Shown here piece by piece: positions 42,325 through 43,394 of a DNA stretch of 64,000 nt. Numbering within the stretch: the first letter of the stretch is position 1; each line of letters begins with the position of its first letter. The DNA is taken from positions 1 to 64,000 of the forward strand of contig JAHFUX010000003.1 in NCBI GenBank assembly GCA_023264875.1. Reading direction: 5' to 3'. The translations under genes and the position numbers were made by a program. The notes below the pieces were generated by a model that was not told the origin of the DNA, made no database searches, and saw only the letters and a program-made list of their open reading frames with translations. The stretch is from Nitrosarchaeum sp. (lineage in GTDB: Archaea > Thermoproteota > Nitrososphaeria > Nitrososphaerales > Nitrosopumilaceae).

Positions 42325-42405
42325 ATCACATCTTCTAATTTACCAATAAAAAATCTTTGTGTGGTTTACAAAAGATTTTATGGACAAATTACCCAATTTT
42401 GTTGG

Positions 42406-42499
42406 GTTCCAGTGGTGTAGACCGGTCAAGCATACTGCCCTTTCAAGGCAGTGATCCCGGGTTCAAAATCTAACGATGAAAATCCCGGCTGGAGCACCA
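42406..42499 (+). tRNA. tRNA-Glu(TTC) with a 15-nt intron in the T-loop and encoded CCA
   Basis: Acceptor GTTCCAG/CTGGAGC-A-CCA, anticodon loop CTTTCAA, T-stem CCGGG/CCCGG; removing 42468..42482 restores T-loop TTCAAAT. Confidence 0.93.
42468..42482 (+). other. tRNA intron (position 59/60), ATCTAACGATGAAAA
   Basis: Forms BHB: CCGGG/CCCGG, 4-bp TTCA/TGAA, 3-nt bulges AAA and AAT, inner TC/GA with TAAC loop. Confidence 0.85.
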
Positions 42500-42542: not shown

Positions 42543-43394
42543 TTGGACAGGAAAAATATCGAGATTAATCCTTTACTTGAAACATATAGTAAGTATATCG
42601 ATAAAATCAACCAGGCATTAGATAGAGAATTATCACTATATTCAGAATCAGAATTCATTGAACCACTAAAATATTCCTTGGAGGGTGGAAAACGAATTAG
42701 ACCAATAATCTTAGTTTTGGCTGCCGAAAGTGTAGGAAAAATTGATGATAATACATTAGCAGCGTCATGTGCTGTAGAATTTTTACATATGGAATCTATC
42801 ATACATGACGACATTATAGATAACGAAACAATGCGAAGACAAAAAGAACCATTTCATATCAAATATGGATACAACACAAGTGTACTAACAGGAGATTTTG
42901 TTTTAGGGTTAATTCTTGCAATTTCTTCAAGATTAGACAATGCAAGAATAACAAAGGATTTGGCAACAACAGCAATGCTGATGAGTGAAGGAGAAATGAT
43001 AGAAAGCAGATTAGAAACAAGTGAAGATGTTACTTTTGATGATTATCTCAAAGTAATTGAATATAAAACTGCCACTGCATTTGAAGTGGCAGCAAGAATA
43101 GGTGCAATTATTGCAAATGGTAGTGAGGAAGAAATAGAAGCACTAACAGAATATGGAAAAAATATAGGAATTGCATATCAAATAAGAGATGATTTGTTAG
43201 ACTGGAAGAATGAAGATAAATTATTTAATTTATTAATCAAGAAAAGTTCTGATCCAAGAGATGTTTTCAATAAAATGGAAGAACTTCTAAAAAAATATTC
43301 TGACAAGGCCATAACAAGTTTAAGAAAAATTTCAGATAATGATGCAAAAATGAATTTGGATAATCTTATAAAATTTACAACGTTTAAGGCATAA
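42543..43394 (+). CDS. Polyprenyl diphosphate synthase (second paralog)
   Basis: GGKRIRPIIL, IIHDDIIDNETMRRQ, YQIRDDLLDW; TTG start. Confidence 0.88.
   Translation: MDRKNIEINPLLETYSKYIDKINQALDRELSLYSESEFIEPLKYSLEGGKRIRPIILVLAAESVGKIDDNTLAASCAVEFLHMESIIHDDIIDNETMRRQKEPFHIKYGYNTSVLTGDFVLGLILAISSRLDNARITKDLATTAMLMSEGEMIESRLETSEDVTFDDYLKVIEYKTATAFEVAARIGAIIANGSEEEIEALTEYGKNIGIAYQIRDDLLDWKNEDKLFNLLIKKSSDPRDVFNKMEELLKKYSDKAITSLRKISDNDAKMNLDNLIKFTTFKA

Follow-up and report, generated by a model that had tools for sequence, protein, structure and literature searches.

Non-canonical introns of archaeal tRNA genes have been described at several positions, and 59/60, in the T-loop, is named among them (PMC4090602). 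In tRNAscan-SE 2.0, one model was trained on such introns from Thaumarchaeota, of which 107 were reported (PMC8450103). Here, we describe a tRNA-Glu(UUC) gene in the genome of Nitrosarchaeum sp., an ammonia-oxidizing archaeon, located in a 64,000-nt stretch of DNA (the window), whose T-loop is interrupted by 15 nt. We conclude with high confidence that this is a functional tRNA-Glu(UUC) gene with a bulge-helix-bulge (BHB) intron at 59/60 that would be spliced by the endonuclease EndA and the ligase RtcB, and that the intron is probably ancestral to Nitrosopumilaceae and was lost several times. No description of this intron in Nitrosarchaeum or Nitrosopumilus was found in the papers searched; the set of 107 very likely includes its orthologues. 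The initial annotation of the window treated the 15-nt size and the 59/60 position as surprising. This was overrated, because the position is already listed and thaumarchaeal genomes are rich in non-canonical introns.

Structure and detection of the tRNA-Glu(UUC) gene

The gene and its parts are listed in Table 1. The T-loop has 22 nt in place of the usual 7, and the remaining arms are normal. Direct reading and comparison with orthologues bore out the isotype given in the initial annotation, and the coordinates and letters stated there match the sequence exactly. ARAGORN missed the gene, and its Rfam RF00005 score was 17.7 bits (threshold, 29). The intron explains this failure of common tools on the only GAA-reading tRNA of these genomes.

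Table 1. Features of the tRNA-Glu(UUC) locus (window positions).
Feature	Positions	Strand	Basis
Promoter-like conserved element CAAAAGATTTTATGG, 23 to 37 nt upstream of the tRNA (putative function)	42369..42383	+	26 upstream regions, from intron-bearing and intronless genes
Pre-tRNA-Glu(UUC) with encoded CCA	42406..42499	+	Direct reading; orthologues in the family
5' exon (tRNA positions 1-59)	42406..42467	+	Alignment to intronless orthologues
Anticodon loop CTTTCAA (anticodon UUC at 42442-42444)	42440..42446	+	Direct reading
T-stem strands CCGGG and CCCGG	42457-42461; 42484-42488	+	Direct reading
BHB central helix, 5' strand TTCA (exonic)	42462..42465	+	Partner 42477-42480; covariation from U55-A to C55-G
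5' bulge AAA (predicted cut after 42467)	42466..42468	+	Third base variable in relatives; both exonic A residues invariant
BHB intron, 15 nt, at 59/60	42468..42482	+	BHB conservation; covariation; precise absence in some orthologues
Inner helix TC/GA with loop TAAC	42469-42470/42475-42476; loop 42471-42474	+	Direct reading
BHB central helix, 3' strand TGAA (intronic)	42477..42480	+	Covariation
3' bulge AAT (predicted cut after 42482)	42481..42483	+	Second base variable in relatives; exonic T60 invariant
3' exon (T60 to the CCA end)	42483..42499	+	Direct reading; exon alignment
A73; encoded CCA	42496; 42497-42499	+	Direct reading
idsA-type polyprenyl synthetase (conserved neighbor, tree marker)	42543..43394	+	PF00348, E value of 1.2e-51

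The pairing that the initial annotation reported as a BHB is present letter for letter, with one correction: it is not the minimum-free-energy fold. For the naked T-arm, ViennaRNA favors a structure with a 6x6 internal loop and an AUC/GAU pairing, which lies 1.8 kcal/mol below the BHB. BHB bulges are recognized on the enzyme. When the 63,985 15-mers of the window were placed at 59/60, the central helix formed by chance in 1.8% of them, and the central helix together with a 2-bp inner helix formed in 0.29% (0.06% with Watson-Crick pairs only). From one sequence alone, the motif is therefore only moderately improbable by chance and no more than suggestive; it is secure because it is conserved and covaries in relatives.

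Judged by eye, a minimum of nine further tRNA genes in the genome seem to contain introns (L067, L069 to L075, and L077), in the D-arm in L072, L073, and L074. Some of these other genes were missed or miscalled by ARAGORN.

Distribution and history of the intron

A pattern search covered 101 relatives and 187 genomes of the family, and some of the genomes in which it had missed the gene were examined with other queries. In the family set, 145 of 187 genomes had a match, about 106 with the insertion and 39 without it (counted as rows). In almost all loci, with or without the intron, the tRNA gene lies approximately 45 to 65 bp upstream of idsA, and the intron-bearing and intronless states are orthologous by virtue of this shared linkage. 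Intron state changes 10 times on a tree of idsA (144 rows), and well-supported branches force at least 4 changes; this is a single-gene tree with a midpoint root, from which gain and loss are indistinguishable. The intron is widespread on either side of that root, in keeping with an old intron that was lost repeatedly. Such a pattern suggests that it was probably ancestral to Nitrosopumilaceae and patchily lost several times.

Among the genomes examined with other queries, the gene at this locus is intronless in five, two, and one genomes of genera g19, g12, and g5, respectively. In two g6 genomes and three g9 genomes, the intron is present and the variable loop is shortened by one base. In genus g19 and two g12 genomes, a clearly different intronless tRNA-Glu(UUC) was observed (TTTAGGCCTTTCACGCCTGAG; L080 to L085 and L095). 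Its occurrence at the same idsA locus in L080 to L085 suggests replacement in place or transfer. In genome G031 (L268), the T-arm and 3' acceptor strand of the intronless tRNA-Glu(UUC) are those of the CUC isoacceptor (TCTCGGGTTCAAATCCCGACGGGAGC), which looks like intron loss by gene conversion; intronless tRNA-Glu(UUC) genes other than this one keep their own T-arm. A contig filed under a Chitinophagaceae metagenome-assembled genome (L186) carries a Nitrosarchaeum tRNA-Glu and idsA, probably through binning contamination.

An order-wide pattern for tRNA-Glu with A37 matched nothing in other families, because most of them have G37 (TTTCG) instead. With a covariance model (R1), tRNA-Glu genes of other families were found, and same-position insertions were present in two of these families, sometimes in the CUC isoacceptor. 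One genome (G061) has T-loop insertions in both of its tRNA-Glu genes. Another (G062) has a 15-nt T-loop insertion in tRNA-Glu(CUC) and a D-arm insertion in its UUC gene. The 59/60 site is thus wider than the family and not bound to one isoacceptor. Rows with T-loop or D-arm insertions in tRNA-Glu of other families were L217, L230, L219, L234, L220, and L235.

On a broader reading, the intron would be an old, order-wide feature of tRNA-Glu that was moved or copied between the UUC and CUC genes, and its retention would reflect an effect of splicing on how glutamyl-tRNA is shared between translation and tetrapyrrole synthesis. Same-position insertions are seen in both isoacceptors in other families but bring no regulatory evidence, and we consider the proposal very unlikely. 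The initial annotation had remarked that tRNA-Glu should feed both GluRS and HemA, encoded in the window. Both genes were correctly annotated (HemA is on the minus strand), but their presence is no evidence about the intron, and the genome has an intronless tRNA-Glu(CUC) as well.

Conservation, covariation, and splice sites

The cross-genome comparison of tRNA-Glu proposed in the initial annotation supported the intron, the BHB, and the splice product. We extracted 53 distinct intron-bearing T-arms from family genomes, of which 4 were entered by hand from pattern-search rows. The BHB (5 plus 4 bp, with 3-nt bulges on both sides) is intact in all 53, with intron lengths of 14 to 22 nt (mainly 15 or 16) and an intron loop that drifts. 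Splicing in silico yielded the T-loop TTCAAAT (47 arms) or TCCAAAT (6 arms), and these products equal the T-loops found at this idsA-linked locus in orthologues that lack the intron.

In an alignment of 26 T-arms, 100% of the cells pair. Double-sided changes were found in 13 cells versus 2.4 in shuffles, and 0 of 500 shuffles, which ignore relatedness, reached 13. These changes involve C-G/U-A pairs in the T-stem, U-A/C-G pairs in the central helix, and U-A/C-G/G-C pairs in the inner helix. Variation is limited to a few helix pairs, since the exonic strand belongs to the constrained T-loop. The idsA tree shows three changes at base 55, with long branches among the rows involved; where the intron is present, the intronic base paired with it changes as well. 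The compensation at base 55 was probably not a single event.

Position 55 of the T-loop is normally a near-universal U55/pseudouridine site. A C at this position (TCC for TTC) was observed in tRNA-Glu(UUC) of several genera, with the intron present or absent (L036, L037, L147, L152, L157, L163, and L257 to L266).

The family offers a natural series of about 145 genomes in which a single syntenic locus either has or lacks the intron, with several losses. This series would be useful for testing archaeal tRNA intron loss and the intronic compensation of exon changes in the T-loop.

In this genome, runs of A (TTCAAAATC...GAAAAT) make four pairs of cuts equivalent, and splicing at other borders could give the same product. 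The relatives locate the cuts. Among the 53 T-arms, the 5' bulge varies at its third base (A, T, or C) and the 3' bulge at its second (A, G, T, or C), whereas A58, A59, and T60 are invariant. With 5' bulges AAT or AAC and 3' bulges AGT, ATT, or ACT, TTCAAAT is kept only when the cuts fall after 59 and before 60, which makes different borders extremely unlikely. This comparison backs the cuts proposed initially, after nucleotide 2 of each bulge, by which exactly the 15 nt of the intron would be excised. The predicted cuts are consistent with the rule that places intron borders between bulge residues 2 and 3 (PMC4307357).

Alternatively, the mature tRNA might retain the insertion and so have an enlarged T-loop, given that a continuous hairpin is possible in the naked arm. 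However, a T-loop of 22 nt would be expected to disturb the elbow formed by the D-loop and T-loop. We set this reading aside as scarcely credible, since the BHB is kept despite the drift in length and loop sequence and since intronless orthologues have a normal T-loop.

Copy number and function of the gene

The tRNA inventory of the genome, compiled by an RF00005 search followed by ARAGORN on the RF00005 loci, contains an intronless tRNA-Glu(CUC) at C27:6071 and no other tRNA-Glu(UUC). A search of the 1.33-Mb assembly (97% complete) allowing 3 mismatches returned one site, so that the second, intronless tRNA-Glu(UUC) named in the initial annotation as the case against an intron was sought and not found. 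Assembly gaps leave a small chance of another copy. Reading of GAA depends on the splicing of this gene, the sole tRNA-Glu(UUC) found. Its exons are almost identical throughout the genus Nitrosarchaeum, and the conserved upstream element suggests that it is transcribed. Because standard detectors miss or under-score it, the gene might be taken for a pseudogene, decayed or damaged by the insertion, with tRNA-Glu(UUC) supplied by another gene. The chance of this is negligible in view of the single copy found, the conserved exons, the covarying structure that the insertion retains across the family, and the upstream element, and we set this reading aside.

Splicing machinery and comparison with known systems

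Two EndA proteins are encoded in the genome, a catalytic alpha subunit (178 amino acids), most similar to the enzymes of Sulfolobus and Aeropyrum, and a structural beta subunit (187 amino acids), which is without the catalytic His by alignment. Both carry PF01974 and PF02778. The alpha subunit has a segment like the crenarchaea-specific loop (GYYGKPIGIPKPKP) that aligns to K44 and R46 of Aeropyrum pernix EndA, residues held important for broad specificity (PMC6379350; PMC12397907). The separate subunits, which the initial annotation had suggested looking for, and the conserved Lys of the specificity loop place the enzyme with the heteromeric (alpha-beta)2 broad-specificity type, the tetramer being predicted; the heteromeric type is the one given for Thaumarchaeota in a review (PMC4090602). 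RtcB (3'-phosphate ligase) is also encoded.

In the transcript, intron and exon would pair as a strict BHB, in which the T-stem is followed by a 3-nt bulge, the 4-bp helix, a second 3-nt bulge, and the 2-bp inner helix. Going by known enzymology, the heteromeric (alpha-beta)2 EndA would cut each bulge after its second nucleotide, and RtcB would join position 59 to position 60, giving the standard T-loop TTCAAAT. The mature, spliced tRNA is predicted to contain CCGGGTTCAAATCCCGG. With its helix and bulges, a normal predicted tRNA after removal, and both EndA and RtcB encoded, the locus has the attributes of an archaeal BHB tRNA intron.

The archaeal non-canonical introns described at 59/60 share the position, the strict BHB, the expected processing by an (alpha-beta)2 EndA, and the short length (PMC4090602), whereas the present case is one orthologous tRNA-Glu(UUC) intron followed across a whole thaumarchaeal family. 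The thaumarchaeal introns treated with tRNAscan-SE 2.0 are of the same lineage and class (PMC8450103); here, distribution, covariation, and losses are laid out at one locus. The tRNA-Glu introns of Sulfolobus tokodaii, cut by EndA in vitro, are likewise non-canonical, are cut between the second and third bulge residues, and show border ambiguity from repeated bases (PMC4307357), but they lie in the D-arm and belong to a crenarchaeon, unlike this T-loop intron. The permuted tRNAs of Thermofilum pendens also have a 59/60 junction and a heterotetrameric EndA (PMC3978253), although their exon order is permuted and the order here is normal. The tRNA-Glu(UUC) intron is real, but nothing in it falls outside the known kind of archaeal intron.
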